Positions 1,914 through 20,894 of a DNA stretch of 64,000 nucleotides are shown here, piece by piece. The stretch is from Streptomyces sp. NBC_00358. GTDB lineage: Bacteria; Actinomycetota; Actinomycetes; Streptomycetales; Streptomycetaceae. The position numbers and the translations under genes are program-made. The stretch covers positions 310,001-374,000 of the forward strand of contig NZ_CP107976.1 of the NCBI RefSeq assembly GCF_036099295.1. The letters run 5' to 3'. Position 1 is the stretch's first letter. Every line of letters begins with the position of its first letter. The notes under the pieces are model-generated. The model was not told where the DNA came from. It was given only the letters and a program-made list of their open reading frames with translations, and ran no database searches.

Positions 1914-2106
1914 TCGGCGTCGTCAGGCCGCTTCACCCATGCGTCCACGCGACCACCTTGATCTCGCACGGCCGGCCGCCGCGCGGGACCCCGCAGTGGT
2001 TCACCAGGCTCCGGTGGGGGGCGTACCCGACCACCTGAAGGCGGTCGCGAAGGCCCGAGTTCGCCGAGGATGCCCGCGATGAGGAGACGGTGGCGGTCTT
2101 CGAAAG

Positions 2107-2280
2107 ATGGTGGTCGACCGGCTGATCGCGCGCTGGGAGGCCCACCTGCTAGAGAAGACGCTGTGGCGGACGCTCTACGAGACGGGATCTCGCCGGGCGC
2201 CGGACCCCGGTGAACGTCAAGGGCAGCCGGGCGCGCGAGGGCTTCGTGCCGGAGACCGTCTACGGCCTCTGGTGAGCTCG
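2107..2280 (+). pseudogene. Possible tyrosine integrase remnant
   Basis: One frame reads RLIARWEAHLLEKTLWRTLY then ETGSR. This resembles the stretch before the first catalytic Arg of actinobacterial tyrosine recombinases (typically LREKTLWRMLYETAAR). The similarity then breaks off, with no second half, HxxR box or catalytic Tyr. The assignment rests on one short motif and is tentative. If right, it is the oldest of several recombinase traces in the window. The rest of the stretch from 1914 to 2372 shows nothing else I can support. Confidence 0.3.
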
Positions 2281-2372
2281 CGTGTTCAGGTGTCGGGTAT
2301 TCGTGGCCGAGCCCAGACGGAGCTCGCGCTGAGTGATCTGCGCGAGCTCGGCGGTGCCCCGCAGTCTGCTGG

Positions 2373-2463
2373 TCGGCGGTTGGCGGTTGGCGGTTGGCGG
2401 TTGGCGGTTGGCGGTTGGCGGTTGGCGGTTGGCGGTTGGCGGTTGGCGGTTGGCGGTTGGCGG
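2373..2463 (+). repeat. Perfect heptanucleotide tandem repeat
   Basis: Twelve perfect head-to-tail copies of TTGGCGG occupy 2380-2463, preceded by one imperfect copy (TCGGCGG) at 2373. The array ends about 50 bp before the likely GTG start of the next gene. A 7-bp unit is not a multiple of three, so a change in copy number shifts any frame reading through it. Three units (21 bp) would encode AVGGWRL. Slipped-strand variation is plausible. Confidence 0.97.
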
Positions 2464-2513
2464 TTGCCATGATGGGCGGCTGTAAGTTCTCAGGTGTTTC
2501 TGGAGGTGCGGCC

Positions 2514-3086
2514 GTGGCGTTCGAGACCGAAGCCGATTTCGGACTCGCCGAACGCGATGAGTGGTCTTATGCGCCGGCAGTCGGCGTCGGACCGCTCCGG
2601 TTCGGCATGACCGTCGACGAAGTGGTCGAGGCGGCTGAGATCCTCGGCCGGACGGAGGTCAGCGATTGTGTACGGGACTACGCGATCTTCTCGCCGACTT
2701 GGAAGATCGAAGTACACCGTCACGGGGTGGCTTCTCAGCCTGCTGTCACGGCCTATGTGAGTCAAGGCGTGGGGCTGTTCTGCGTCGCCGCCGACGCTGG
2801 GCAGGGCCCCCAGGTCGCGTTCGACGGACTCCCGCTGGTCGGGCGAGACCTGTCGGAGCTGGAAAGCGATGCAATCGCGTATGCCGAGGCGATGGGCGTG
2901 CACCTTCGCTACACGCCCGAGGGCTACGCAGGACCGGATGACCCCGGGGTCCTCATGCGCGGGCAACTCGTCGGGCGGGTTCTCCGCTCGCGTCCGCTGT
3001 TCATGGTGACGCGTGACGGCGCGAATACGGAATGGGACTCGGTGCCCTCCGACGAGTACCACGTCAAGGGCAAGCCCATGGCCTGA
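2514..3086 (+). CDS. Conserved hypothetical protein (GPLxxGM family)
   Basis: A 190-aa soluble protein of unknown function. I chose the GTG at 2514 because GGAGGT lies six bases upstream (2502-2507). Earlier ATGs at 2469 and 2472 sit against the heptanucleotide repeat without a ribosome site, and a longer start would translate the repeat. Near the N-terminus GVGPLRFGMTVDEV resembles IGPLHCGMPLTEAED in the product of the gene at 18673, so the two may be distant relatives. There is no signal peptide or membrane segment. Such small proteins often sit in accessory regions next to toxins, but nothing here proves an immunity role. Confidence 0.7.
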   Translation: MAFETEADFGLAERDEWSYAPAVGVGPLRFGMTVDEVVEAAEILGRTEVSDCVRDYAIFSPTWKIEVHRHGVASQPAVTAYVSQGVGLFCVAADAGQGPQVAFDGLPLVGRDLSELESDAIAYAEAMGVHLRYTPEGYAGPDDPGVLMRGQLVGRVLRSRPLFMVTRDGANTEWDSVPSDEYHVKGKPMA

Positions 3087-3161
3087 GGTGGTGTGACGGA
3101 CAGTGATGCTCGGGACTCCCCCGCCGCTGTTTGACCTCGCATTGTGACTGCGGGTTTCCGC

Positions 3162-3698
3162 CTACTCCAGATGGAGAGCTGCCAAGCGGGGCAGTCGGCG
3201 AGTCATTTCGTTGTGGTCATCGAAAGCGAAGTTCCAGGTGGGGTCGAGCTCCGGGTAGCGGATGGTGGGTGGGCTCGCGGGAAGCTGATCACCAGTCGCC
3301 GAGATGTGTGCGTTCCAGGCGATGCCCAGCATGTCCTCACCCTCCAGGTCGACGCCGTCGGCCGCGCAGGCTTGAACGATGGGCAGTTCTGCCAGGGCAT
3401 CGGGGTCGGCGACTGCGAGCTCGAAGACTTCACGGCCCTGAGCGATCAGCCAGCCGCGGAAGTAGTCGAAGCCGTCGTCAGAGCACCCACCGTTGGCGAT
3501 GTAGGCAGCGGCCCACAGAGGATTGGTGTAGGAATCAACCATCAGGTCCCACAACACTTGCTCAGCGGCGACGATCTCCTCGACCGGCCGGGAGGCCAGT
3601 AGCGAGGTCGCATTGCGCGCGACCGCTTCGCCGTCGTTCGGGTCGGTCGCCTGGTTGCGGGCTGCCTCAATGAGCTGCCAGAACTGCTTTTTGTTCAT
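3162..3698 (-). CDS. DUF4240 domain-containing protein
   Basis: A 178-aa protein matching the DUF4240 pattern: an N-terminal MNKKQFWQLIEAAR, a central LWAAAYIANGGCSDDGFDYF followed by RGWLIAQGREVFE, and a conserved ADPDALAELP segment. DUF4240 proteins are small cytoplasmic proteins, common in Streptomyces, often in repair or toxin-immunity-like neighbourhoods, with no assigned biochemical function. I preferred the ATG at 3698 over a start six codons upstream because it begins exactly at the family N-terminus. Neither start has an obvious ribosome site. It converges with the gene at 2514. Confidence 0.82.
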   Translation of the reverse strand: MNKKQFWQLIEAARNQATDPNDGEAVARNATSLLASRPVEEIVAAEQVLWDLMVDSYTNPLWAAAYIANGGCSDDGFDYFRGWLIAQGREVFELAVADPDALAELPIVQACAADGVDLEGEDMLGIAWNAHISATGDQLPASPPTIRYPELDPTWNFAFDDHNEMTRRLPRLAALHLE

Positions 3699-3982
3699 GG
3701 AGGCAGAGCCTGTCACCTGGCACTGACATCGCCGGTTGCGGGCGCTTGGCCCGTAAGAGCAGCCACGTCGCTCCTGTCAGCGTGTGTGATCGCCGGGGGC
3801 GATCGGCTCCAGGTTCACCGACTTCGGTGACCAGGCGGCTGGCAGTCTTGTCGTGGTGGCCCAGCGCCCTTCGCGATGATGGGTGCCGGGGCTTCGAGGA
3901 CAAGCTGGCGGATCGCGGAGGTGCTGCCGCGCTGCGGCGGAACGCCGAACTTTCGTGTGCAGCAGTTGGTGCCCGACAGCGC

Positions 3983-8186: not shown

Positions 8187-8336
8187 TCAGCCGGCCTTGG
8201 CTGCCTCCTCGGCGCGGGCTCGGGTGCTGGCGAGGCGGTAGGAGTCGGTGCCGGTCTCGATGATGGTGCCGTTGAAGGTGAGACGGTCGACGATGGCCGC
8301 GCAGAGGCGGGGGTCGGTGAACGTCTTGGTCCAGCC
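8187..8336 (-). pseudogene. istB: istB 3' fragment (IS21 ATPase)
   Basis: The reverse strand encodes GWTKTFTDPRLCAAIVDRLT then FNGTIIETGTDSYRLA, the C-terminal 49 residues plus stop of IstB. Joining it to 11973-12620 gives one uninterrupted 265-aa frame with ESFG followed directly by GWTKTF, the normal IstB sequence. The break is therefore a clean insertion. Confidence 0.88.
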
Positions 8337-8348
8337 ATCTGGGGCTGG

Positions 8349-8358
8349 CACTTGTTCC
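8349..8358 (+). repeat. Element 1 left terminal inverted repeat
   Basis: CACTTGTTCC lies 12 bp inside the left junction and is the inverted partner of 11957-11966 with one mismatch. Confidence 0.6.
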
Positions 8359-8475
8359 CTCACAAGAGTTGCTGCTGCCACCTGGCCGTATCCGCCTCCT
8401 GCGGTCCTCGTTGGTTCTCGTGGCAGTGCCCCGGTTTTCGAGGTGCTGCCTGAACAGTTCAGGTGCGAGGAAGGT

Positions 8476-9546
8476 GTGCCGGTGGCCGAGGCGAGACTGC
8501 AGGTCATCACGGGCGGGGCTGTCCCGCAGGAACCGCTGGTCACCGACCCATGGCAGTTCCAGATCGCATGCGTCGACGCGTTCGTGGCCTCTTGGCGGGC
8601 CCGCGGGTTCAGCCCGGTGACCATTGACAACGACATCGGACTGTTGGAGCGGACGCTGAAGGCTCTGGGGCGGCCCGCGTGGGAGGTGACGCCGGAGGAC
8701 ATCGACCGCGTGGTCGGTGATCTGGCCCTCCAGGGCCGCAAGACCTCGACCCGGCGCGAGTATGTGCAGATCTTCAAGGGCTTTCACCGGTTCCTGCAGG
8801 CCCGCAAGGCGGTCGAGATCGAGGCCGCGTTCGGCGTCCGGCTGGTCTGCCCGGTCGACGAGTTCAACGCTTCGCGGCATGTAGGCGACGACTCTCCGGC
8901 CCTGCTGCCGCCGCCGACGCCGGAACGAGTTGGTGAGTTCTTCGACTTCATGAAGCAGCGGATCGCGACCGCGCGAAAGTACGGACCCGCGGCCCGGGAC
9001 TATGCGATGTTCCGGACGCTGTATCACGCCGGACTCCGCTCGGAGGAGGCATCGCTGCTGGAGAAGCCGGACCTCCACTTCTCCCGCGGCCCGTTCGGCA
9101 AGCTCCACGTCCGCTTCGGCAAAGGTGCCCACACCTCCGGACCGCGACCACGCTGGGTGCCTATGCTCGATGGCCTCGACCTGGTGCTGCGGTGGTTCCT
9201 GGAAGACGTACGGCCCAAGTTCCCCGACTCGCCCGTACTGTTCGCCGACGAGTCCGGCGGCAACCTCCACCGCGGAACCATCCGCAACCGGCTGCGGTAT
9301 CTCATGGAACTCGAAGGACGACCATCGGCTGACCGGTTCAGTCCTCATGCCCTGCGGCGGGCATGCGCGACCCACAACTACGAACGCGGCGTCGACCTCG
9401 TGGCGATCCAGCAGTTGCTGGGGCACTGGACAGTCAGTTCGACCATGCGATACGTCCGGCCCTCCGCGATGTTCATCGAGGACGCCTATCAACGGGCAGT
9501 GGCCAGCACCCTGGCCGAGCTGAGCGGGAAGGACACCATCGCATGA
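8476..9546 (+). CDS. Tyrosine recombinase (TnpA-like)
   Basis: A 356-aa integrase. The N-terminal core-binding domain (about 25-125) carries SPVTIDNDIGLLERTLKALG. The catalytic domain has the full set of active-site residues: Arg in YHAGLRSEEAS, Lys in the RFGKGAH beta turn, HALRRA for HxxR, GHW for the second His, and Tyr in STMRYVRPS. The frame is open further upstream, but that part crosses the istB junction at 8337, so the true start must lie inside the element. GTG at 8476 (GAGG five bases upstream) or GTG at 8482 fit. The stop overlaps the next ATG (ATGA). It probably performs excision and insertion of this element. Confidence 0.85.
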   Translation: MPVAEARLQVITGGAVPQEPLVTDPWQFQIACVDAFVASWRARGFSPVTIDNDIGLLERTLKALGRPAWEVTPEDIDRVVGDLALQGRKTSTRREYVQIFKGFHRFLQARKAVEIEAAFGVRLVCPVDEFNASRHVGDDSPALLPPPTPERVGEFFDFMKQRIATARKYGPAARDYAMFRTLYHAGLRSEEASLLEKPDLHFSRGPFGKLHVRFGKGAHTSGPRPRWVPMLDGLDLVLRWFLEDVRPKFPDSPVLFADESGGNLHRGTIRNRLRYLMELEGRPSADRFSPHALRRACATHNYERGVDLVAIQQLLGHWTVSSTMRYVRPSAMFIEDAYQRAVASTLAELSGKDTIA

Positions 9547-9857
9547 AGATCCAATGGCGGCTGCGGATGGCCGCCGCCCAGCGCGAGGTGTGGACCGGAA
9601 CCGAGCTGCGGCGGCTACTGGCCGAGAAAGCCGGCCTGGAGCTGTCCTCCGCATCGGTCTCCGCACTGTTCACCAAGGAGCCCTCGCAGGTGAAGATGAC
9701 CACCCTGGCAGCCTTGTGCACCGCACTGGAGTGCACCCCCAACGACCTCATCGAGGTCGACACCACCCCCGTCCAGCGGCCGATCGCCCCGCCCCGGCCC
9801 GTGGCTGACCTCCCGAAGGCCGCGTCCTCCCGGGGCCGGTCGATGCCGCCCCTGTGA
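9543..9857 (+). CDS. Small Xre-type HTH protein
   Basis: A 104-aa protein coupled to the recombinase by an ATGA overlap. Residues 5-70 form a Cro/Xre-like helix-turn-helix domain: GTELRRLLAEKAGLELSSAS, VSALFTKEP, MTTLAALCTALECTPNDLIE. A Pro-rich tail follows. In comparable three-gene recombinase elements a small middle protein assists or regulates recombination, and this one occupies that place. It might regulate the element promoter, act as a directionality factor, or do both. Confidence 0.75.
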   Translation: MKIQWRLRMAAAQREVWTGTELRRLLAEKAGLELSSASVSALFTKEPSQVKMTTLAALCTALECTPNDLIEVDTTPVQRPIAPPRPVADLPKAASSRGRSMPPL

Positions 9858-9869
9858 CGGGCGGCCGCG

Positions 9870-11507
9870 ATGGGCAAGAAGCAACGCGACTGCATCAGCT
9901 GCGGTGCCCCAGTCGGCTATCTCGACCGACCACACTGCTGCCGGTGCTGGCGCCAGATCAAGGAACAGGCCGCGAAAGCGAGCTGTCCTTCCTGCGGCCG
10001 CGAGCGCGTACTCCAGGAGGACACCGGCCGATGTGTGCTCTGTTCACGGGTCTGCGAACAGTGTGGCCGCCCGGTCCGGTCCGCGCAGAACCGTCTATGC
10101 CGCGACTGCCGGAACAAGGCCCGGCGGCTGGCGGCCCAGCAGCCGTGTCCCCGCTGCGGCAAGCTGGGCTATCTGCGCGAGGAAACCGGCTGGTGCGGTC
10201 CCTGTTCTCATCCAGGATCGTCGAAGCAGCCGCCGCGGGCCTGCCGTGGATGCGGGCAGTTGCGGCGCCATGAAGGACTGGGCCTGTGCTCGGCCTGCTG
10301 GCAAAAACACCCCGGCCGTCCATTCCTCCGAGGCGAACACCTCCACGATCGGCTGACCGATCCGCCGGAGTGGCTGGCCGCTTTCGTCGCCCACGTCGCG
10401 GCCCGCCACTGCGTCTCCAGGGCCTGCGGCTTCATCACCGACCTGGGCCGTCTCCTGGAGGACGAGCACTCCAACTCACCCCGGGCCCTGCTGGAGCGTT
10501 CCCGCAGGCCCGGACGGTCGATGGGCTCCTTCGCCCGCTCGCTCGAGGACTTCTTCACCCTCCGCGGCCTGGCCCTGCCCACCGACCAGGCCGAACGGCT
10601 CGCCGCCGGTCGGCGACAGCGCCGTCTCGATGCGGTTCCCGAGCCGCTGCAGCAGTCTGTCGTTGCCTTCGACGCCTCTCGGATGCGAGCCCAGGACCGG
10701 GCCCGCCGGGCCGGCACCCGGCCTCGCAGCGATCACACCCTGGAGACCGCCCTGGCCACCATGCGTGACCTCGCGCTCTTCCTCGTGACCCACCGTGGGA
10801 AGGACGACTGGGCCCTGGTGGACGTGCACGACATCGAAGCCTTCCTGGCCACCTTGCCCAAGGCCCGCAAGCGCCGGCTGATCGTGCTGCGGCAGTTCTT
10901 CCGCTTCGCTCGCGCCCAGCACATCGTGCTGATCGATCCGACCCGGACCCTGACCGCGAAGGAGCCGAACAACTTCCGCGGTAGGACGCTCACCCTGGAC
11001 GAACGGCGCAAGCTCTTCCGCCGCTGGACCACTGACGAGCGCGTGCACCCGCACGAGGCCCTGGTGGGCACCCTTGCCCTGCTGCACGGAGCCTCCAGCT
11101 TGGAGGTCCGGCTGCTGCAGATTGCCGACGTGGATCACCAGGCCCAAGCGGTCCGCCTCGGCAAGCGGCCTCATCGCATTCCACTGGATCCGGCCTCCTG
11201 GATGACACTTCAGCGGTGCCTGGCCCATCGCGATGGCTGGCGGACCGACAACCCTCACGTGATGGTCACCAAAGGAACGAAGGCCGGGCGGAGCCCGGCC
11301 TCAACTGCCTACCTTTCCCACGTCCTTGACGACTGCGGGTTCCCGCCCCGCATGATCCGCAGCACCCGTCTCGTCGACCTTGTGACCACCATGGATCCCA
11401 AGCTCGTCGCCGCCGCGTTCGGCATGGACCCGCAGGCCACAATGATCTATCTCGGCGACCACGTCGAGGAGGGGCGCCTTCCTGCCTCGGAGACCAGCAG
11501 GAAATGA
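9870..11507 (+). CDS. Zinc-ribbon tyrosine recombinase-like protein, degenerate
   Basis: A 545-aa protein. Residues 8-150 contain about six CxxC-type pairs (CISCG, CCRC, CPSCG, CEQCG, CPRCG, CRGCG), suggesting tandem zinc ribbons. Residues 275-530 resemble a tyrosine recombinase: DHTLETALATMRDLALFLVT is a core-binding helix, LLHGASSLEVRLLQIADVD is in the place of the first catalytic Arg motif, and RSTRLVDLVTTMD with FGMDPQATMIYLGDHV is in the place of HxxR...Y. The first Arg (normally GLRxSEL) is replaced and the HxxR His is absent, while a Tyr remains. It is probably a DNA-binding partner of the first recombinase rather than an independent enzyme. Confidence 0.7.
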   Translation: MGKKQRDCISCGAPVGYLDRPHCCRCWRQIKEQAAKASCPSCGRERVLQEDTGRCVLCSRVCEQCGRPVRSAQNRLCRDCRNKARRLAAQQPCPRCGKLGYLREETGWCGPCSHPGSSKQPPRACRGCGQLRRHEGLGLCSACWQKHPGRPFLRGEHLHDRLTDPPEWLAAFVAHVAARHCVSRACGFITDLGRLLEDEHSNSPRALLERSRRPGRSMGSFARSLEDFFTLRGLALPTDQAERLAAGRRQRRLDAVPEPLQQSVVAFDASRMRAQDRARRAGTRPRSDHTLETALATMRDLALFLVTHRGKDDWALVDVHDIEAFLATLPKARKRRLIVLRQFFRFARAQHIVLIDPTRTLTAKEPNNFRGRTLTLDERRKLFRRWTTDERVHPHEALVGTLALLHGASSLEVRLLQIADVDHQAQAVRLGKRPHRIPLDPASWMTLQRCLAHRDGWRTDNPHVMVTKGTKAGRSPASTAYLSHVLDDCGFPPRMIRSTRLVDLVTTMDPKLVAAAFGMDPQATMIYLGDHVEEGRLPASETSRK

Positions 11508-11543
11508 CGAGAGACCGTCCCGGAGGCCGGACAGAATGCGGGC

Positions 11544-11918
11544 ATGACCGTCTTCTCCTGCATGAACTGTCGGCAGCAAATCAGCCCTGACCTCCGGGAA
11601 GTACCGATGCCCCCGCCTGTCACGGAGGATGCCCCGGGACACAGGTTCTTGCCATCGCTGATGCCGCGCGGGTCGTATGCAGTCAGCCCTCACAACGGCG
11701 TGTTCGTCCTCAACCCAGACGATGTCTCGGGAGTAGCCAGACACCCTGACCGTGGGCGCCTCAATGGATGCTGCGGACTCGACGGCCTGGATGGCCCCAA
11801 CCTCGTCTGCGATGCCTGCGGAGCCGAGGTCGGCACCCAGCAATCGGACTGCTGGTCTCAACAGCTGATCGCGCTGATACCCGACGCGGTGACCGCAACC
11901 GTCTCTCCATCCGCCTGA
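11544..11918 (+). CDS. Passenger gene: CxxC-containing conserved protein
   Basis: A 124-aa protein at the right end of element 1, ending 54 bp before the junction. It has an N-terminal CMNC and a C-terminal pair, GLDGLDGPNLVCDACGAEVG then DCWSQQ, which I recognise as a conserved small-protein family of Streptomyces chromosomes. Two CxxC pairs suggest a structural zinc site. It has no evident recombination function, so it looks like captured cargo. Function unknown. Confidence 0.6.
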   Translation: MTVFSCMNCRQQISPDLREVPMPPPVTEDAPGHRFLPSLMPRGSYAVSPHNGVFVLNPDDVSGVARHPDRGRLNGCCGLDGLDGPNLVCDACGAEVGTQQSDCWSQQLIALIPDAVTATVSPSA

Positions 11919-11956
11919 ACCCGTGAAGTTTCGGCAGCACCTGGCACGGGTTCGCC

Positions 11957-11966
11957 GGAACATGTG
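11957..11966 (-). repeat. Element 1 right terminal inverted repeat
   Basis: GGAACATGTG lies 6 bp inside the right junction and is the inverted partner of 8349-8358 (9 of 10). Confidence 0.6.
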
Positions 11967-11972
11967 CGCTTT

Positions 11973-12620
11973 GCCGAACGACTCGTTGGAGGCGATGGCG
12001 ACGCTGTTCTTCTCCTCGCGTTCGGTCAGGACCTGGAAGAGGAGTTCGGCGCCGCGCCGGTCGAGTTCCATGTAGCCGAGTTCGTCGATGCAGAGCAGGT
12101 CGACACGTCCGTATCGGGCGATCGTCTTGGAGAGCTGCTTCTCGTCGGCGGCCTCGACGAGCTCGTTGACCAACTTTGTGGCCAGCACGTACTTGACCCG
12201 GTAGCCAGCCATCGCCGCCTCGGTTCCCAGCGCGATCAGCATGTGGGACTTGCCGGTTCCGGAGTCGCCGATCAGGCAGAGCGGCTGGCTCTTCTTGATC
12301 CATTCACAGCTGGCGAGCGTGTGGATGGTCGCCGCGTCGAGGTTCGGGTTCGCGTCGAAATCGAAGGTCCGCAACGACTTGTCCCGAGGGAAGCCGGCCG
12401 CCTTGATCCGTCGTTCTGACCGGCGCCGGGACCGGTCGTCGCACTCGGCCATCAGCAGCTCGGCGAGGAACCCGCGGTAGGTCATCTGATCCTTCAGCGC
12501 CCGGTCGGCGATGTCGGAGAACTCGTTCCTGATCGAGGGAAGCCGCAACAGGCGGCAGGCGGTGTCGATGGCCGTGTTGGCGGCCTGCTCGGTCAAGCCT
12601 CGCTGGCGGGGCAGGGTCAC
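11973..12620 (-). pseudogene. istB: istB 5' fragment (IS21 ATPase)
   Basis: This is the first 216 codons of IstB, the AAA+ ATPase helper of IS21 transposition. Walker A reads GDSGTGKSH, Walker B is VDLLCIDELGY, and the sensor region is SVAIASNESFG, where homology stops at 11973. The frame continues into foreign sequence to 11301. The GTG start at 12620 overlaps the istA stop (GTGA), the normal IS21 coupling. With its last 49 codons displaced to 8187-8336, IstB is inactive here. Confidence 0.9.
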
Positions 12621-14239
12621 TGTGCTTCTCCCTCGCGGTGTTCACCGCCGCTGGCGCGACGGCGTCGGAGCAGTTGGTCGTAGTGGGTCACCGAGGGCAG
12701 CGGCCTGGTGTCCGGGGGAAGATGCGCGAGCCGCCACTCGTGCAGAAACGTCACGGTGGCCGCGCCCGGGGTTCCGGCCGGTTCGTCCTCGGCCTGGGCG
12801 ATCTTGCGGGCTTCCAGCGCGACCGCGTCCGCGGTCAGGGCTCCTGCCCGCAGGGCCATCGCGAGTCCGGCGACCAGATGCTCGTGCGGCAGGTGGCGGG
12901 CCAGCAGCAGCACCTCGATCAGCGCCCTCGTCCCGGCCGTGTCTCCGTGGGCCTTGACCGCCGCGGCCCACCAGGCGTCATGGACCGGGGTGAACTTGCC
13001 TGCCGAGCGGGCCTGTTCGAGCGCGGTGGCGCCGGGGAAGGCACCCGGCTTGCGGATCAGGGCCTCCAGGTAGTGGTCCAGATCCAGGCGGCAGCCGCCC
13101 TTCGCGATCAGCCGCTCGTGCCGGGCCACTTCCACGTTCCGGTCGTAAACCATCAGGTGAGAGGCGTGCAGCACGACCCTGACCCGCTTGCCGATCAGCC
13201 GGACCGGCACCGAGTACCGGTTCGTGCGGACCGCGATCTGGCTGTAGCGGTCGACCCTGGGAGTGAAGAGCCGGCCCGTTTCGAACGGTTCCTCGGGCAG
13301 CGGCATCAGCAGTGGCCGCTCGACCTCGAAGTACTCGTCGATCGTCCGCGGCCGCGAACCGATCCGGCGCCGCCCGTCGTGAAGATCCCACTGGTCGACG
13401 AGTTCGTTCAGCTCGGCCAGCGAGTCGACCTCGGGCACCAGGGTGAAGTGGTTGCGGCGGAAGTAGCCGATCTGTCCCTCCACTCCGCCCTTCTCGTGGG
13501 CGCCCTCGATGCCGGGCCGGCAGTAGAAGCTCTCGATCCCGAAGTGCGACCTGAAGGCGATCCACCGGTCGGCCTCCACCCTGGCCCGGCTCAGCCCCAG
13601 CACCTGGGCGACGGCGGCCTTCAGGTTGTCGTAGCGGACCTTGCTCCGCGGGACCCCGCCCAGCGTCCGCAGCGCGTGAACGTGCCCTTCGAAGAAGGCT
13701 TCCTGGCCGCAGGACGCGAAGACGCGATGGACGGCCTTGCCCGAGTAGGACAGGCGGAAGGAGAACAAGTAGCAGGTCACAAGCTCGCCGGCGAGGCGGA
13801 TCGTGACGTCGCCGAAGTCGACCTCGGCCTCCATGCCGGGCTGGTGGGTCTGCGGGATGAACGCTTCGACCGGGGCCTTCCCCGACTCGACGAGGATCTG
13901 CGGCTTCCGGTCCGAGACGTAGCGCCGGACCATTTGGTAGGAGACGTCCGCGGCGTGTTCCTCGACCAGGCGGTGGAAGATCCGCGTGATCGTGTGCCGC
14001 TGCTTGCGCGGCGCGTCCAGATCCGCCTGAAGCATCCCGTCGATCACCAGCTTGTAGGGGTCCAACGCGGTCGGCCGCGGCGGCAGCTGCTTCCGCGGCT
14101 CCGGCCAGACCGAGTCCACGGCCTTGCGAACCGTCCGCCACGACACGTTGTACTTGCGCTCGATCTCCCGGATCTTCATGCCGCCGCGGTGGTCACGCCG
14201 AATCGCCGCGTACAACTCGACCTTCGACATCTGCGGCAT
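12617..14239 (-). CDS. istA: IS21-family transposase IstA
   Basis: A 540-aa DDE transposase. The N-terminus carries a helix-turn-helix (KIREIERKYNVSWRTVRKAV). The catalytic core shows EAEVDFGDVTI (first Asp), KVRYDNLKAAV (second Asp) and EKGGVEGQIGYFRRNHF (Glu). The C-terminal beta-barrel domain has RYSQIAVRTNRYSVPV. It is full length for IstA. The ATG at 14239 reads MPQMSKVELYAAIR. The gene looks intact, but transposition normally needs IstB, which is broken. Confidence 0.93.
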   Translation of the reverse strand: MPQMSKVELYAAIRRDHRGGMKIREIERKYNVSWRTVRKAVDSVWPEPRKQLPPRPTALDPYKLVIDGMLQADLDAPRKQRHTITRIFHRLVEEHAADVSYQMVRRYVSDRKPQILVESGKAPVEAFIPQTHQPGMEAEVDFGDVTIRLAGELVTCYLFSFRLSYSGKAVHRVFASCGQEAFFEGHVHALRTLGGVPRSKVRYDNLKAAVAQVLGLSRARVEADRWIAFRSHFGIESFYCRPGIEGAHEKGGVEGQIGYFRRNHFTLVPEVDSLAELNELVDQWDLHDGRRRIGSRPRTIDEYFEVERPLLMPLPEEPFETGRLFTPRVDRYSQIAVRTNRYSVPVRLIGKRVRVVLHASHLMVYDRNVEVARHERLIAKGGCRLDLDHYLEALIRKPGAFPGATALEQARSAGKFTPVHDAWWAAAVKAHGDTAGTRALIEVLLLARHLPHEHLVAGLAMALRAGALTADAVALEARKIAQAEDEPAGTPGAATVTFLHEWRLAHLPPDTRPLPSVTHYDQLLRRRRASGGEHREGEAQ

Positions 14240-14333
14240 GACCAGGCCCTTTCACCAGGAGCATCCCGATGCTCCCGTGGCAAGCACCCCGGCGACTTCA
14301 AAACTCGGGCTCTGGCTCATTTTCCGTGATCGG

Positions 14334-15008
14334 TCACTGAGAGTGTCCGGTGCTGGGAAGAAGCAAGCTCCGTAGTACGGCGGCGACGCTGCCGGGCTGG
14401 CTGATGAAGGGTGAGTGGCTCGTGTGCCACGTCAATGTGCTGGAACAGCGCCTGCTCATCTCCCTCTGCAGGTCGGGTTCAATCGCGCGATCCTGAGTGC
14501 AGATGACGTAGGTGGAAGGTGTGTTCTGCCACGATTGGCATTCCGGTACGCCGCGGCCACATCCCGGTTTCTGGGGTCGCAGCAACGACGCTGCCCAGGT
14601 CGCACGTTCGATCGGGGCGTCGGCGTAGAACACTTCTATGGCCGCCGCGGGATCCACGTGGGTCACGCCGTCTCCGTCTTGCACGATGGAGGAGGCGAGG
14701 ATCTTGGTCGAACCACCGAGACGAGCCGCGCTCTCGCCCTCAGCAGGCACAAAGGCTGCCAGGTACACCAAATGAGCAGCACCTGTCAGGCCGGTGATGA
14801 CTGACCCGCCGTAAGAGTGGCCTACAACCAGGGGCGGCTGTTCCATGGCATCAACGACTGCTTGCACCGCTTCGGTGTCGGCCTGAAGCGAGCCACGATG
14901 CAGTTCCGGAACAGCGACCTCGACTCGGGCAGCAGCCAACTCCCCGACGACCAGGTTGAAGTGCTGGGGGTCGTGGTACAGGCCGTGTACCAACACCACA
15001 CCACTCAC
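14334..15008 (-). CDS. Alpha/beta-fold hydrolase
   Basis: A 224-aa alpha/beta hydrolase of the short esterase-like class. It starts VVLVHGLYHDPQHF (oxyanion loop HG), has the nucleophile elbow VVGHSYGGSVI (Ser about 83), YLAAFVPAEGES, a late acidic region CTQDRAIEP and HTSHSPFIS with the catalytic His. I chose GTG at 15008, which follows GGGGGA and gives the usual family N-terminus. Earlier in-frame starts run into ISL3-derived DNA. It sits between the IS21 and ISL3 elements, and its last codons touch the IS21 end, so its extreme C-terminus may be altered. Substrate unknown. Confidence 0.75.
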   Translation of the reverse strand: MSGVVLVHGLYHDPQHFNLVVGELAAARVEVAVPELHRGSLQADTEAVQAVVDAMEQPPLVVGHSYGGSVITGLTGAAHLVYLAAFVPAEGESAARLGGSTKILASSIVQDGDGVTHVDPAAAIEVFYADAPIERATWAASLLRPQKPGCGRGVPECQSWQNTPSTYVICTQDRAIEPDLQREMSRRCSSTLTWHTSHSPFISQPGSVAAVLRSLLLPSTGHSQ

Positions 15009-15073
15009 GAAGATCCCCCGATTCAGCAGAGCATTCACTTCTCCCGCAGCCATGATCACCTGCGCGCCGCCGA

Positions 15074-15145
15074 TCACGCCAGAAGCACACGTTTGCGCAG
15101 GAGGGCGAATCCGGCTCGGCCGAACATCTGGCGCTTGAGCATCTT
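15074..15145 (-). pseudogene. ISL3 transposase 3' fragment
   Basis: The reverse strand reads KMLKRQMFGRAGFALLRKRV then LLA and stop, the well-known C-terminus of ISL3-family transposases. It continues exactly from HVNRI at 19176. Joined, the two pieces make one 539-aa frame with no gain or loss of bases. Confidence 0.9.
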
Positions 15146-15154
15146 AAAAGTTAC

Positions 15155-15165
15155 GTGGAATCTGC
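15155..15165 (+). repeat. Element 2 left terminal inverted repeat
   Basis: GTGGAATCTGC, 9 bp inside the left junction, pairs with 19160-19170 with one mismatch. Confidence 0.7.
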
Positions 15166-15212
15166 CGGGGTGATCATGTCTCCCTGGTGTAGCCACGAAC
15201 TTGGGAGACGGC

Positions 15213-16283
15213 TTGAGCGCCGCTGTGGGAGTGACGGAGAAGTGGCCGGTGCTGGGGCGCCACGAGAGGGCAGCGGGCTGGCTGCAAGTGTGGTGCGATC
15301 TTGGCCGTGCGCCTCGGACGATCGATGCCTACGCCCGCGGGCTGGCCGAGTACCTGGTGGTGTGCGAACGAGAGGGGGTCGACCCACTCGCTGCCAGTCG
15401 GGCTCATATTGCCCTTTATGTAAGGGAGTTGACTGCGCGGCCGAGCCGTCGGGGCGTGAACGTGGTCTCGATCGATTCGGGGTCGGGTCTGGCGAACGCC
15501 ACGATCCAGCAGCGGCTGGTGCCGGTGCGGTTGTTCTACGACTTCCTGATGGAAGAGGGACTGCGGGAGTCCAATCCGGTGGGTCGGGGCCGTTATACGC
15601 CGGGCCGTCGTTGGGGTGGGCACCAGCGTGGCCTGGTGCCGCGGCTGACGAAGCTGCCGTGGATCCCCAGCGAACAGCAGTGGTTGGGAATCTTGGAGGT
15701 CGCGCGGGGGGAGCCGGTCCGCAACCGGGTGATGCTGGCTTTGGCCTACGATGCCGCGCTGCGGCGCGAAGAGCTGTGCTCGCTGCGGACCGATGACCTG
15801 GATCCGGCTCACCGTACGTTGCGGGTACGCGCGGAGACGACGAAGAACCGACTGGAACGGGTGGTGCCGTACTCGGCGTCGACCGGCGTGCTGATGTCGG
15901 CCTACCTTGCCCACCGGGCCACGGTCAGCCGGGCGAGAGGCCCGCTGTTCCTCTCCGAATCACGGCGCAACTACGGCCAACCGCTGAGCCTGTGGACGTG
16001 GTCGAAGGTGATACGGCGGATCGCCGTGACGGCCGACGTCCCGCAGTTCTCCACGCACACCACCCGGCACCTGTGTCTGACCGATCTGGCCCGGATGGGC
16101 TGGGAATTGCACGCGATCGCATCCTTCGCCGGCCACCGTCACACCGACTCCACGCTTCAGTACATCCACCTGTCCGGCCGGGACCTGGCCGATAAGCTCG
16201 CCCGCGGCATGGAGCACATCCACGCGTGGCGAATAGAGGCGCTCGCCTCCTCGAACGGCACGTTGCCGGAGGTGGCACGGTGA
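15213..16283 (+). CDS. Tyrosine recombinase (Tn554 TnpA-like)
   Basis: A 356-aa integrase-family recombinase. The core-binding domain (about 20-125) includes TIDAYARGLAEYLVVCEREG. The catalytic residues are complete: Arg in AYDAALRREEL, Lys in the ETTKNRLER turn, HTTRH for HxxR, GHRH for the second His and Tyr in STLQYIH. The start is uncertain. TTG at 15213 has GGGAG about five bases upstream, TTG at 15201 is in frame, and no ATG is near. The stop overlaps the GTG of the next gene (GTGA). Size and order match TnpA of Tn554 (about 360 aa). Confidence 0.85.
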   Translation: MSAAVGVTEKWPVLGRHERAAGWLQVWCDLGRAPRTIDAYARGLAEYLVVCEREGVDPLAASRAHIALYVRELTARPSRRGVNVVSIDSGSGLANATIQQRLVPVRLFYDFLMEEGLRESNPVGRGRYTPGRRWGGHQRGLVPRLTKLPWIPSEQQWLGILEVARGEPVRNRVMLALAYDAALRREELCSLRTDDLDPAHRTLRVRAETTKNRLERVVPYSASTGVLMSAYLAHRATVSRARGPLFLSESRRNYGQPLSLWTWSKVIRRIAVTADVPQFSTHTTRHLCLTDLARMGWELHAIASFAGHRHTDSTLQYIHLSGRDLADKLARGMEHIHAWRIEALASSNGTLPEVAR

Positions 16284-18619
16284 GTACATCCCGGCTGGCC
16301 CTGCCTGAGGAGAACGGCCCCGAACGCTGGTCCTGGCCGATCATCCCAAACCACTACGACACTGCTGTCGAGATCCGGCCCGCCGAGGTACTGGCAGTGA
16401 GCGAACTCGGGGTGCGGAATCTGCGCCGGCTCAAGGACCACGACCCGTCTGCTGCCAGCTGGCGAGTGATCCGCCGTCTGCTGGTCCCGCTGGAGGCGGT
16501 CAACGCCGCTCTGGACTCGCCACCCACCCCACACCGTCGGCGCGCCATGCTCGACGTGATCGCTGTGCTGCTGACACGTTGCGCGGAGACCGGCCGAACC
16601 TTTTGGGGATGGACCTCGCAGGAGTGGATCCATCTGCTCGGCCGCAACCAGACCGAGTTCCACCAGCACGCCCCGGGCTGGGTCAACGACGAGGTCCGCC
16701 CCTATCTTGCCGCGCACGCCTACCTGTTGGGCTCCTTCAACGAATTCCACCGACTCGGCAGCTTCCAGCGACTCACCCTGTCCTGGCGGATCTTCGGACG
16801 CGGCCTGGTGAGCAGCGAGATCGCCCGCATCCGCGCGGTCCTCGCGTCCTGGGGCTATCAACTGGGGCGGGACGACGACACGCTGCTGCCGATGGTCGTC
16901 TGCCAGCTGCTTCTCCTCAACCGGAGCCCGCATCTGGAGGATCTCGACACCTCGCTGTTCGACCGGGTCCGGCGCGAGAAGATGCTGGCCGGCTCACAGC
17001 GCTACACGCTGCACGCCACGCAGCGAGCGGTTGCCGAACTCGGGTTCTGTGATCCTCCGCAGCCCATCACTGGCCGCCAGTCGGTACGGGCGACCGGCGG
17101 CGCGAAGACGTGGGAGCAATGGGTCGATCGCTGGTACGCCACCTCTACGCTCACCCCGGGCGTCCGTGGCGCCATGCGTTCCGCCCTCCTCAGGGTGGGC
17201 CGGTGGATAGCCGCGGAAAAGCCCGACGTTGCTGACCCGACGGACTGGACGCGGCAGACCTGCGCGACCTGGATCGCCGCAGTGGACCGGATGAGGGTCG
17301 GTGACTACGTTCAGCGGACGGCTGGCCTGGGGGACCGTCTCGGCAAGCCGCTCGAAGCGGCGACCAAGGCCGGGCAGATCACCGCGCTGCGAACGTTCTT
17401 CAGGGACTGCCAGGAATGGGAGTGGCTGCCCCGCAGCTTCGACCCACTGCGCTCGTTGGCGATCCCTCGCAGCATCACAGCCCTCCTCGGCCCTGACCCG
17501 CGGGTGATCGCCGATGAGGTCTGGGCGAAGCTTCTGTGGGCGGGTTTGAACCTGGAAGCCGCTGATCTCCCGCAGTCCCAGGCCGGGCAGTTCTACCCCT
17601 TCGAACTGGTCCGCGCAGTCACACTGACCTGGCTGTTCTCCGGTCAACGCAGCAACGAGATAGCCCGATTGAGGGTGGGCTGCATCCGTTGGCAGCACGA
17701 CGGCACCCCCATCACCGGTGACTCGCAGCAGGTCCTAGCCCGCGACACCGTCTGTCTCCTCGACGTCCCGCCCCACAAGACCGGCACCGCCTTCAGCAAG
17801 CCGGTCGACCCGATCCTCGGCCAGGCCGTCGATGCCTGGCAGGCCGTCCGCCCGGATCAACCGAAGTTCACTGACCGCCGCACCGGCGAGCGCGTCGACC
17901 TGCTGTTCGCCATCCGGGCCCGCCGCGTCTCCACGCACTACATCAACAACACGGTCATCCCGATGCTCTGCCGCAAGGCCGGAGTCCCGGACGCCGACGT
18001 CCGCGGGAACATCACCAGCCACCGGGCCCGGTCCACCATCGCCAGCCAGCTCTACAACGCCAAGGAACCGATGACGCTGTTCGAACTGCAAGCCTGGCTC
18101 GGACACCGATCACCGCAATCCACCCAGTACTACGCGAAGATCACCCCGAACACCCTGTCCAAGGCATACTCCGAGGCGGGCTACTTCGAGCGGAACGTCC
18201 GCACGATCGAGGTCCTGGTCGACCGGGACGCGGTCGCCTCCGGTGCCGCCGCTGGCGGTGAGCCCTGGCAGCACTACGACCTCGGGCACGGCTACTGCAG
18301 CTACACCTTCTTCGAACAGTGCCAGCACCGCATGGCCTGCGCACGCTGCGACTTCTACACCCCAAAGGAATCCACGCGATCCCAACTGCTGGAAGCCAAA
18401 GGAAACTTGCAGAAGACGGCCGTGTCCATCCCGCTGACCGACGACGAGCAGGCAGCCATCGAGGACGGCCAGGCGGCCCTAGACCGGCTACTTGACCGCC
18501 TCGCCGACACACCCACTCCGGCCGGCCCGACACCACGCGAACTGGACGTGCCAGCGACAACCCGCCTCCTGCCGCTTGTCGACGTCCGACAGGGCGGGAC
18601 GGGTTGCGCATCGCGCTGA
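16280..18619 (+). CDS. Large tyrosine recombinase (Tn554 TnpB-like) with Cys-rich tail
   Basis: A 779-aa recombinase translationally coupled to the gene before it. Residues 1-280 are an extended helical N-terminal region. The core-binding domain follows (about 285-400). The catalytic domain has LFSGQRSNEIARLRVGC (Arg), HKTGTAFSKP (Lys), SHRARSTIASQLY (HxxR), LGHRSPQSTQYYAKI (His and Tyr), so it looks active. The last 110 residues carry a cysteine cluster, CSYTFFEQCQHRMACARCDF, probably zinc-binding, then a helical tail. TnpB of Tn554 is a comparable large partner. This one is longer because of its N-terminal region. Confidence 0.82.
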   Translation: MSTSRLALPEENGPERWSWPIIPNHYDTAVEIRPAEVLAVSELGVRNLRRLKDHDPSAASWRVIRRLLVPLEAVNAALDSPPTPHRRRAMLDVIAVLLTRCAETGRTFWGWTSQEWIHLLGRNQTEFHQHAPGWVNDEVRPYLAAHAYLLGSFNEFHRLGSFQRLTLSWRIFGRGLVSSEIARIRAVLASWGYQLGRDDDTLLPMVVCQLLLLNRSPHLEDLDTSLFDRVRREKMLAGSQRYTLHATQRAVAELGFCDPPQPITGRQSVRATGGAKTWEQWVDRWYATSTLTPGVRGAMRSALLRVGRWIAAEKPDVADPTDWTRQTCATWIAAVDRMRVGDYVQRTAGLGDRLGKPLEAATKAGQITALRTFFRDCQEWEWLPRSFDPLRSLAIPRSITALLGPDPRVIADEVWAKLLWAGLNLEAADLPQSQAGQFYPFELVRAVTLTWLFSGQRSNEIARLRVGCIRWQHDGTPITGDSQQVLARDTVCLLDVPPHKTGTAFSKPVDPILGQAVDAWQAVRPDQPKFTDRRTGERVDLLFAIRARRVSTHYINNTVIPMLCRKAGVPDADVRGNITSHRARSTIASQLYNAKEPMTLFELQAWLGHRSPQSTQYYAKITPNTLSKAYSEAGYFERNVRTIEVLVDRDAVASGAAAGGEPWQHYDLGHGYCSYTFFEQCQHRMACARCDFYTPKESTRSQLLEAKGNLQKTAVSIPLTDDEQAAIEDGQAALDRLLDRLADTPTPAGPTPRELDVPATTRLLPLVDVRQGGTGCASR

Positions 18620-18672
18620 TATCGGAGTGCGCACAGGCGCGGAAGAGTGTCACAGTCACTGCCGTGACCTTG

Positions 18673-19155
18673 ATGAACGTGCTCGTCGACTTCGCTCGAA
18701 CTGGCAGGATCGGGCCGCTTCACTGCGGAATGCCCCTGACCGAGGCCGAGGATCTCCTCGGTCGCGGGCGCCCCCACCCCGCCCTCCTCATGAAGGGCCC
18801 CGACATCGATGGCTATCCCTATGCATGGGGAGGCCTTCGACTGGTCGTCACCCAGAGGGCTGTCAGCGGCATCTGGATCGACCTCTGGCCCGGATCAACG
18901 GCGAGTCTCCCGCCGCTCGTCCTGCCTGATTCCGAGTCGTTCGAGGCCACTGTGCTCCGTGAGGAACTGATCACGGCCCTCGACACCGCAGGCTGCCACA
19001 ACGAGGTCAACCCCGTCCTCACCTTCGGCGAGCAGTCGAGCATCCCCACCCAGCCCGCCGAGGTCTGCGCTGTCTTCAGCCTGCCCGGCCGGGACCACCA
19101 TGTTCCACACCGCGATCGGCACTACCTCGACGTGATGCACAAGCACACGGCTTGA
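18673..19155 (+). CDS. Passenger gene: GPLxxGM-family hypothetical protein
   Basis: A 160-aa soluble protein at the right end of element 2, ending 20 bp before the junction. The N-terminal motif GRIGPLHCGMPLTEAEDLLG followed by GPDIDGYPYAWGGLRLVV is typical of a widespread small-protein family of Streptomyces. TFGEQSSI occurs near the end. The ATG at 18673 gives the usual family start (MNVLVDFARTGR). No strong ribosome site is seen. The final 20 residues may be partly element-derived. It has no recombination motif, so it is probably cargo. Function unknown. Confidence 0.6.
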   Translation: MNVLVDFARTGRIGPLHCGMPLTEAEDLLGRGRPHPALLMKGPDIDGYPYAWGGLRLVVTQRAVSGIWIDLWPGSTASLPPLVLPDSESFEATVLREELITALDTAGCHNEVNPVLTFGEQSSIPTQPAEVCAVFSLPGRDHHVPHRDRHYLDVMHKHTA

Positions 19156-19159
19156 CATC

Positions 19160-19170
19160 GCTGATTCCAC
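19160..19170 (-). repeat. Element 2 right terminal inverted repeat
   Basis: GCTGATTCCAC, 5 bp inside the right junction, is the inverted partner of 15155-15165 (10 of 11). Confidence 0.7.
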
Positions 19171-19175
19171 AGAAT

Positions 19176-20723
19176 GATGCGGTTGACGTGTCCTTCGACG
19201 ACGCCGGAACTCCAGGGCAGGGTGAGGCCGGCGATGACCGCATCGCGGTCACGGTCGATGCCGGCGGCGAGTGTGTGGAGGCCAGGGAGATCGTCTCGCC
19301 GGACTGCATCGAGCCACTGCGGCAGCCGTTCACCTTGGCGCTCAGTGAGCATCTGGCCGAAGGAGCGGACGTGGCCGGTGAGGGCGTCCAGTTCAGGGCA
19401 GTGGACCAGAACGGCTTTGAGCCGAAGGTGCTCCGTCTCGTTGAGAGTCTCCGGCCGGCGAAGGATCCATCCGGCGACGACGCGGGGTGACGGTGGCCGA
19501 GCTGTGACGGGGCCCGACGAGAGCCGCTTCTCCCGGAAATAGGCGCGAACCCGCTGGTAGCTGCCCTGGTAGCCGAGTGGCACGATCTCTTCCCACACGG
19601 TCCAGGCGTTCGTGCAGCCCTGGTTCCAGCGGTCATCCAGGTAGGGCTTGAAGGCGTCGAGTTTGGACGGCCGGCCCTGCCATTGGCCGTGGAACAGGTC
19701 CTCCGGGGTGGCTGCGTCGGCCAAGAGTTTGACGGTGCGGGAGGTCATACGGAGTTGGCGGCCGATCGCCCTCCGGCTGAGCCCGGCGGCGAGTAGTTCG
19801 TGGACGGTCGCGTGCTTGGCGCGGGTGCGGTCGGCGAAACGATGCCCGGTAGGCCACGGCGAGCCGGACGGGTCTGTGAACTTCTCCGGCTGGGGGACGG
19901 ACTGGGCTGGATCCGGCGCCAGGACCCGCAGGCACCCGCGGTGGTCTGCGACACAACGCTCAGCGGCCTCGCTCAGGTTGTGCCAGAGGTGCCACCTGTC
20001 CGCGACCTGCACCGCCTGGGGCGCCCCGGCGGTGGCCCCTTCGGCGAAGAACGGTGCCCGGTCGCGGCATACGACCTCCACCCCGGGCCGCTTCGCGAGC
20101 CAAGCGGCCAGACTGGAAGCCTCCCGGTCGGGCAGCAGGTCCACCGGACGCCTGCTTTCGACGTCGACCAGGACGGTCCCGTAGTGACGCCCTTTGCGGG
20201 TCGCGTACTCATCGACCCCGACCACGCGCGGGGCGGGAACTTCCGGGTCGGGCAAAGCTTCGACCAGCCTCAGCACCGTGCTGCGGCTGACGGACACGCC
20301 AAAGACTCTCGCCATGCGGGCCCCGGCCCGTCCGGCGAGCGCGAGGCCGACCGCGGCCAGCGCCGACCGCAGGCGCTCGGTGCGCCGGCCGTATCGACGG
20401 GTCAGCCCCTGCATCTGCTCAGCGAAGGTCCGGCGCCCGCAGGAGATGACCGGGCAGAGGAACCTGCGGACACGCAAGCAGAGGACGACCCGTCTGCCAC
20501 CGCTGGGCACGTCAGCGGGAAACCGCAGGTAGGAGCTGTGAATCCGCCGTGACCAGCACAGACAGCCCGGGCAAACGGACTCGGCCGCCGTGCTCCGAGC
20601 CTCGATGCGCACCGACTCATCGTTCACGTCGACCGACAGCACCGCCACGTCCGCGATCGACGGGAACAGCAACTCCTCCAGCCGTAGCACCACTTCTTCC
20701 ACGAGCCGAACCGTCAGCCACAC
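19176..20723 (-). pseudogene. ISL3 transposase 5' fragment
   Basis: The first 516 codons of an ISL3-family transposase. It has an N-terminal zinc-binding segment (VCPGCLCWSRR, then CPVISCGRRTF) and a helix-turn-helix. The DDE residues lie in VVGVDEYATRKGRHYG (Asp), AVQVADRWHLWHNL (Asp) and WSSGVVEGHVNRI (Glu). The frame reads on to 19122 through 18 foreign codons (ILWNQRC...) from the inserted element. The true C-terminus is at 15074-15145. All three catalytic residues remain, but the conserved C-terminal tail is lost. Confidence 0.9.
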
Positions 20724-20894
20724 CGAACCGGAGGCAGGCTATTTTCGGGCAACCTGCCCCGGGCCTGCTCGCCCAACAATCGTCACTCAGCGTGGATAGT
20801 CCACGGAAAGTGCGCCAGAGCCAAAACTCGTGAACATCACCCGACCGTGGATCTGGGCGCCTCCCAAACCCGTGAACAACGGGCTTCACAACCC

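Follow-up and report, generated by a model that had tools for sequence, protein, structure and literature searches.

Tyrosine-recombinase elements in Streptomyces probably integrate at fixed sites within the transposition genes of other mobile elements

A 64,000-nucleotide stretch of Streptomyces sp. NBC_00358 (contig NZ_CP107976.1, positions 310,001 to 374,000; hereafter the window, in whose own numbering features are placed) contains two small elements, here called A and B, each inserted in a transposition gene of an insertion sequence (IS). From sequence comparison, both are very probably autonomous tyrosine-recombinase elements that integrate at fixed sites in the transposition genes of other elements. 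The genome holding the window is a single contig of 9.3 Mb. An initial annotation had placed the two elements in IS coding sequence, at conserved protein motifs and in the same orientation. Uninterrupted relatives bear out the insertions; A and B both lie on the + strand and their target genes both lie on the − strand. That observation is confirmed, and its interpretation holds in essence but errs on details.

Element A (8337..11972, + strand; 3,636 bp) interrupts an istB gene next to istA, the IS21 transposase gene (12617..14239, − strand; NF033546 above cut-off). The N-terminal part of istB lies at 11973..12620 and its C-terminal part with the stop codon at 8187..8336, both on the − strand; the frame of the latter, GWTKTFTDPRLCAAIVDRL..., matches PF01695 with an E-value of 1e-6. 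Across the insert, the istB frame reads ...SNESFG/GWTKTFTDPRL..., where the slash marks the insertion point. IS21 relatives without A in same-genus genomes run straight through this point in 17 of the 19 loci read; L236 itself holds A, L234 is rearranged, and one contiguous locus, L228, has 3 bp fewer. Matches to uninterrupted copies in the istB search usually began at query bases 38-41, base 38 being the first after the right tip of A, so that homology begins at position 11973. These empty sites, together with tips common to relatives, place A without a target duplication. Sequence and relatives also define its terminal repeats, GCACTTGTTCC (8348..8358, + strand), 11 bp from the left end, and its partner GGAACATGTGC (11957-11967), 5 bp from the right end.

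We scanned 392 same-genus genomes for the left-tip pattern of A, allowing up to two mismatches and using the reversed pattern as a control. The pattern occurred at 33 sites in 29 genomes, compared with 2 sites for the control. At 28 of the 30 left-tip loci returned, it abutted an IstB-type C-terminus at the identical codon, always antisense to the element. When the flank was ignored, the left end of A continued in 27 of the 30, all of which are within the 28 istB loci; L166 keeps the istB flank and tip beside a decayed element, and L159 and L165 have neither flank nor A end. Pfam named IstB in 23 of the 29 A-flank frames scanned (L159 and L165 being among the 29), and the divergent IstB type in L163 and L164 was recognized by eye. 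The three other left-tip sites (L189, L196 and L197) have a like flank, again by eye, and a relative of A on a Rhodococcus plasmid, with nearly identical tips, adjoins istB. In L037 and L038, the recombinase A1 is 94% and 93% identical to that of the window, whereas the target IstB proteins are only 36% and 35% identical, which argues that the site was chosen again and not inherited with the IS.

Four left tips in istB (L188, the + side of L189, L191 and L198) have no downstream A genes by tblastn and may be decayed or non-autonomous. The nesting is reversed in L056, where an IS21-type element (1556-3922 of that locus) lies inside the A1 gene of an A element. The IstB of L056 (32%) was considered as a divergent target of A and rejected, because it belongs to the IS21 that split A1.

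Element B (15145..19174, + strand; 4,030 bp) lies in an ISL3 transposase gene, and empty sites again indicate insertion without a target duplication. The main part of the transposase, through ...GVVEGHVNRI, is at 19175..20723 (− strand), where homologues and a DDE_Tnp_ISL3 match (E-value 1.9e-4, just under the curated cut-off) identify it; its C-terminal end, (K)MLKRQMFGRAGFALLRKRVLLA, is at 15074..15144 (− strand) and is contiguous with the main part in uninterrupted copies. Fifteen ISL3 loci were returned, one of them (L204) being this genome's interrupted copy and another (L218) stopping short of the site; all 13 relatives read, from same-genus genomes, are contiguous. The terminal repeats of B are GTGGAATC (15155..15162, + strand), 10 bp from the left end, and its partner GATTCCAC (19163-19170), 4 bp from the right end. 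The asymmetric placement of the repeats noted in the initial annotation thus holds, but with offsets of 11/5 bp for A and 10/4 bp for B in place of the 12/6 and 9/5 bp given there.

Both B and its carrier have moved recently. The interrupted ISL3 forms a unit of 6,515 bp (14308..20822) flanked by AAAACTCG (14300-14307 and 20823-20830), in which an alpha/beta hydrolase gene (14334..15077, − strand; PF12697) rides as a passenger between the transposase gene and the terminal repeat. The genome contains three copies of B, two in such ISL3 units and one in another ISL3. The second copy of the 6,515-bp unit is identical, but its 8-bp duplication differs (CGAGAATC rather than AAAACTCG). The transposase of the ISL3 hosting the third copy is 76% identical to that of the window. 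Locus L009, which holds another copy of B, is 100% identical to the window over 15144-19178, whereas the adjoining ISL3 sequence is ~60-85% identical per 100 bp, which indicates that B moved by itself. Identical B elements in differing ISL3s, together with a unit copied with a new 8-bp duplication, therefore point to recent movement both of B alone and of ISL3 with B. Among the best 80 relatives described below, the closest named relative of B is L057, from Streptomyces, at 93%.

A single landing in an ancestral IS, followed by spread through the IS only and without any real targeting, would fit the copying of the ISL3-B composite as one unit, yet it is contradicted by the different degrees to which elements and targets have diverged: near-identical A modules are found in genes whose IstB products are ~35% identical, and identical B elements sit in two clearly different ISL3s. 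That the same site is entered in either orientation, with cut points offset by 6 bp, also speaks against such a history, which we regard as extremely unlikely.

A further claim of the initial annotation was that insertion inactivates the host IS. Such inactivation is plausible where the host gene is istB or an IS3 gene; for ISL3 it is doubtful, given that the unit was copied in its interrupted state with different 8-bp duplications. Insertion of B keeps 516 residues of the transposase and puts 17 new ones in place of the last 23, at a site behind the motif that presumably holds the last catalytic residue. No full-length uninterrupted ISL3 relative above 41% identity was found in the genome, where the other matches are the 76% copy, which also contains B, and fragments. 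The shortened transposase is therefore either still active or was once assisted by a helper.

To survey the targets of B, we searched for relatives of its large recombinase, B2, in 295 same-genus genomes and in a scan of 84,980 genomes, from which we used the best 80 of 194 relatives. B2 relatives were present in 32 of the 295 genomes, including the genome holding the window. The best 80 are mostly from Actinomycetota (Streptomyces, Nocardia, Nonomuraea, Rhodococcus, Mycobacterium, Frankiaceae and others), and a few of the records are labelled Pseudomonadota, Chloroflexota and others. With the genome's own copies added, these sets gave 97 non-duplicate loci (L077, L095, L096 and L129 being removed as duplicates), of which 78 could be classed by target. 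To assign classes, we combined blastp clusters of the frames touching a junction with Pfam and inspection by eye, and did not go by Pfam alone. Six records with unsafe right tips were dropped from the target reading (L020, L021b, L026b, L103, L027 and L129), and L021a, with Tn3 on the left and B2 on the right, was classed from its left flank.

The 78 classed loci comprise ISL3 (29), IS3 (16), Tn3 (6), IS5 (5), DUF6233 (5), IS256 (3), istB (3) and tyrosine recombinase genes (3), with single insertions at another ISL3 site and in B2 itself and six in other genes. Transposition genes of IS and Tn elements thus account, as a raw count, for 63 of the 78, and for 67 when recombinase genes are added. 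Each class is hit at one codon (ISL3, ...EGHVNRI/K; IS3, ...LYL/ATVID; Tn3, ...RTLxL/...; IS256, ...RGHF/P), with the exceptions of IS5 and one ISL3 locus. Three distant members, L134-L136, lie in istB a few codons upstream of the site of A. Along with the istB loci of A, these counts support the suggestion that the habit is general. They also agree with the expectation that transposase genes would predominate among the targets of recombinase homologues, although some B clades use DUF6233 or umuC-type genes.

Target class tracks recombinase ancestry. On a B2 tree of 93 rows, target class requires 12 changes compared with 42.2 in shuffles, and none of 200 shuffles was as low; the tree is a quick one with SH-aLRT support only, and near-copies add to the clustering. 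The IS3, DUF6233, tyrosine recombinase and IS256 classes each require one change. Target choice is therefore inherited along recombinase lineages, across bacterial genera. Random insertion was rejected on two grounds: one codon per class (two for IS5) and classes that follow the tree. The idea that transposase genes are hit merely as abundant DNA that tolerates insertion draws on the multiple copies and dispensability of IS genes, on the use of DUF6233 and on the two sites in IS5. It would lead one to expect scattered positions within the genes, which were not seen, and it leaves the agreement between target class and tree unexplained; we consider it highly unlikely.

Relatives of B2 extend well beyond these genomes, being present in 628 of 72,556 plasmid records, with 412 covering 80% of the query. 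Among the rows listed, many are ~35-43% identical and come from Klebsiella, E. coli and their relatives.

Several observations weigh against a general targeting of transposition genes. Eleven of the 78 classed loci lie outside transposase and recombinase genes (five in DUF6233 genes and six in others), and 19 of the 97 loci were unclassifiable. IS5 is entered at two sites, split by clade: GFxVLPR/RW in L028, L036 and L116, and near EYPP..VYG in L026a and L083. Pfam alone leaves the target unnamed at many loci; for 73 frames of the 78 loci, it names ISL3 (20), Tn3 (6), IstB (3), DDE_Tnp_1 (3), Mutator (2), DUF6233 (2) and rve (6; rve_3 5, rve_2 5 and HTH_21 5, counted with their overlaps). A DNA motif common to all target classes was sought by eye, and none was found. 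In both plasmids tested, L200 from E. coli and L201 from Pantoea, a umuC-type gene (PF00817, IMS domain) adjoins the left tip, a target that holds for these two relatives and not for B itself. In addition, 2 of the 21 readable A copies lack cargo.

The use of DUF6233, umuC and unnamed genes by other clades also fits a different account, in which the recombinases read a DNA motif whose presence in transposase genes is a by-product of coding constraint, and the habit is an accident of the attachment site maintained because selection favours harmless sites. The use of conserved genes is general among Tn554-like elements, as this account would have it, but 63 of the 78 classed targets are transposition genes, in several separate clades, and the distinct element A shows the same habit. 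We give this account a substantial chance, though one short of even. On either account, transposase genes are the main but not the sole target, and what the targets share may be that they are conserved and carried about by mobile DNA.

Some B loci show unusual arrangements. One clade (L068, L070, L071, L117 and L027) is inserted near the N-terminus of DUF6233 genes, which are not transposase genes. In L021 and L026, B is nested in or abuts another B, including the insertion in B2 itself. L073 has the same ISL3 half on both sides of B, oppositely oriented, an arrangement that recombination between two inserted copies might leave. Contigs of ~3.5 kb that correspond to approximately one B from tip to tip (L078, L080, L081, L086, L094, L099 and L106), one of which (L080) has high coverage in its name, suggest many copies per genome.

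The geometry of insertion suggests how B integrates. Most copies end in TANNAGTTAC...CACAGAA. The ISL3, IS3 and Tn3 classes are hit in both orientations, with cut points 6 bp apart as read by eye from printed flanks, and this offset implies a 6-bp core. These 6 bp sit at the right tip of B and are the target's own sequence. The left spacer, TANNAG, is nearly fixed; the right flank continues the target gene, and no donor footprint was seen there. We rejected the left spacer as a donor footprint, because its conserved bases are unlike the printed target cores, and rejected the duplication of a base T at insertion, because IS256- and ISL3-class examples, examined by eye, put the T in the element. 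A tyrosine-recombinase exchange staggered by 6 bp, of the kind reported for SE and GInt elements (PMC10214605, PMC5385486), would produce this offset.

We propose that A and B are small autonomous elements driven by their own tyrosine recombinases, each integrating at a fixed short attachment site inside the transposition-gene coding sequence of other mobile elements. A would be an istB specialist, equipped with A1, a helix-turn-helix (HTH) protein and a degenerate recombinase-like protein, A3. B, with the ordinary B1 and the large B2, would represent a large family in which each lineage is specialized on one gene family, mostly transposases. We infer that integration passes through a circular form and that strands are exchanged with a 6-bp stagger; the target's 6 bp would end beside the right tip, and the left spacer would stay with the element. 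Target genes that are abundant, dispensable and horizontally travelling would provide many safe sites and free transport, of which the interrupted ISL3 that carried B to a new place may be an example.

The gene content of the two elements differs. In A, A1 (8476..9546, + strand; 356 residues) is a tyrosine recombinase with PF00589 and intact homologues, and A2 (9543..9857, + strand; 104 residues) is a Cro/C1-type HTH protein (PF13443, HTH_26) that also occurs in relatives. A3 (9870..11507, + strand; 545 residues) combines a zinc ribbon with a tyrosine-recombinase-like part. Pfam found only DZR_2 and a SAM-like domain in A3, with no Phage_integrase match; Xer matches were weak and partial, and no catalytic H-x-x-R was seen by eye. 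Near its tips, A also contains an inner repeat, AGGTGCTGCC (8441..8450, + strand), whose inverted partner GGCAGCACCT is at 11933-11942 and which was seen in relatives by eye, and a right-end inverted repeat, AACCCGTG...CACGGGTT (11918..11952, + strand), recognized from the sequence and similar by eye in relatives. In B, B1 (15201..16283, + strand; 360 residues) has PF00589 and PF02899, and B2 (16280..18619, + strand; 779 residues) is a large tyrosine recombinase with PF00589 whose catalytic positions are among the invariant columns. A1-type and B1-type recombinases are ~24% identical over the aligned part (L053), and the tips also differ; A and B are therefore two systems, and the claim that two distinct recombinase sets share the transposase habit stands.

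The Tn554 family carries cargo and targets radC. Compared with Tn554 by its features, B has in common an ordinary and a large catalytic tyrosine recombinase in tandem (B1 and B2, PF00589) and insertion at a conserved gene site without target duplication, a mode of site choice for which the initial annotation had rightly invoked Tn554. Unlike Tn554, which has TnpA, TnpB and TnpC, B has no third gene, its cargo-less copies of ~3.5 kb holding B1 and B2 only; its targets are mostly transposase genes, the target's 6 bp lie at its right tip, and no donor footprint was seen. In NCBIfam, the B recombinases matched generic tyrosine-recombinase models only, below cut-off. SE elements likewise have an ordinary and a large tyrosine recombinase, a 6-bp spacer or core and few target sites, and one SE insertion is reported in insJ of IS3. 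However, they have four core genes (intA, tfp, intB and srap) compared with two in B, and the 6 bp at their right end come from the donor, where B has the target's 6 bp, with the near-fixed TANNAG at its left. Lacking a tnpC counterpart and a donor footprint, B would fall outside Tn554 and SE.

GInt elements resemble A and B in their recombinase operon, variable cargo and 6-nt staggered cuts, and several unrelated GInts are reported in ssb genes; the main text of that paper nowhere mentions transposases by that word (PMC5385486). By gene content, A and B are set apart from GInts, which are described there as needing all four genes ginABCD; B has two genes, and A has a recombinase, an HTH protein and a recombinase-like protein (PMC5385486). 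The rulB integron-like elements integrate actively and site-specifically into a umuC-type gene, with recombinase genes on one side and variable genes on the other (PMC4542609). L200 and L201 resemble them in target. Compared by description, rulB elements differ from B in their three recombinases, their homologue of tetR and the 3-bp repeat reported for them (PMC4542609). Recombinase-in-trio (RIT) elements share with A a set of three genes, two of which in A are recombinase-like, but RIT elements have three tyrosine recombinases in tandem, whereas the middle gene of A encodes an HTH protein. The RIT terminal repeat is described as 34 bp (PMC10214605), compared with ~11 bp in A. None of the named families with which A was compared accommodates it. 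Both elements would work like two-recombinase site-specific transposons. A literature search, with most subscription journals out of reach, found no account of elements specialized on transposase genes or istB.

The initial annotation had also described a small gene at each right end, and both are present: a gene of 124 codons in A (11544..11918, + strand) and one of 183 codons in B (18604..19155, + strand). Neither product has a Pfam or NCBIfam match; other genes fill the slot of A in relatives, and homologues of the B gene occur near B-like right tips. As a rule, the passenger applies to A, in which 19 of the 21 copies whose A3 and right end could be read have cargo, but not to B, in which only 21 of 74 copies do. 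Cargo in B was scored as present if more than 200 bp separated B2 from the right tip, and the other 53 copies end within 200 bp. The B count leaves out L020, L021b, L026b, L103 and duplicates; the 21 copies with cargo include L027 (3.4 kb, unsure tip), L073 (another transposase gene inside) and L120 (no open reading frame), and the window copy and L009 represent the same element. The 19 A cargoes form seven groups that blastp does not link, although the accompanying recombinase module remains similar; one group has barstar (PF01337), one includes DUF6228, and the others are unnamed. Slots of ~1 kb in L045, L048 and L194 seem to hold two genes. B cargoes include a DSP-type phosphatase of polymorphic-toxin type (PF22785, L017), DUF6193, DUF4240 and unnamed ones. 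NCBIfam named none of eight cargo proteins.

That the right-end genes are transposition machinery, a counterpart of TnpC, would have precedent in Tn554, SEs and GInts, whose small last gene is needed for recombination (PMC10214605, PMC5385486), but the gene is absent from most B copies and is represented by unlinked groups in A; this alternative is very improbable. The label chromosomal-type given to the right-end genes suits A better than B. Relatives of the A cargo have an A right tip in 2 of 24 non-own loci among the matches listed, and for the B cargo, 6 of the 12 non-own loci with a relative also contain a B-like right tip. A third A-cargo locus, L246, adjoins an A3 remnant. One clear barstar match, the PF22785 model in L017 and the size of the proteins lead us to guess that the cargo consists of single immunity-type genes, a guess that reaches beyond the barstar case.

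Taken further, a widespread, minimal two-gene transposon family and a distinct three-gene family might share a niche in transposition genes, with each lineage tied to the codons of one transposase motif, shuttling immunity-type genes in a swappable slot and being carried onward by the interrupted IS, with the truncated ISL3 transposase still working. We hold this fuller picture only tentatively, as somewhat less probable than an even chance. The target choice of two-recombinase transposons becomes testable, with about a dozen target changes on one protein tree, each to one or two codons, serving as a natural experiment on the acquisition of new sites. The elements would add a second layer of parasitism to bacterial genomes, at a possible cost to IS elements, and would be a vehicle for single orphan genes. 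Relatives in hundreds of plasmid records suggest relevance beyond Streptomyces.

Two plasmid relatives have longer gene sets behind the B-type recombinase. In L200, inserted in a umuC-type gene, it is followed by WYL, hypothetical and ThiF genes, and in the Klebsiella plasmid L199 by WYL, hypothetical and Mov34/MPN genes; each set is possibly a defence system.

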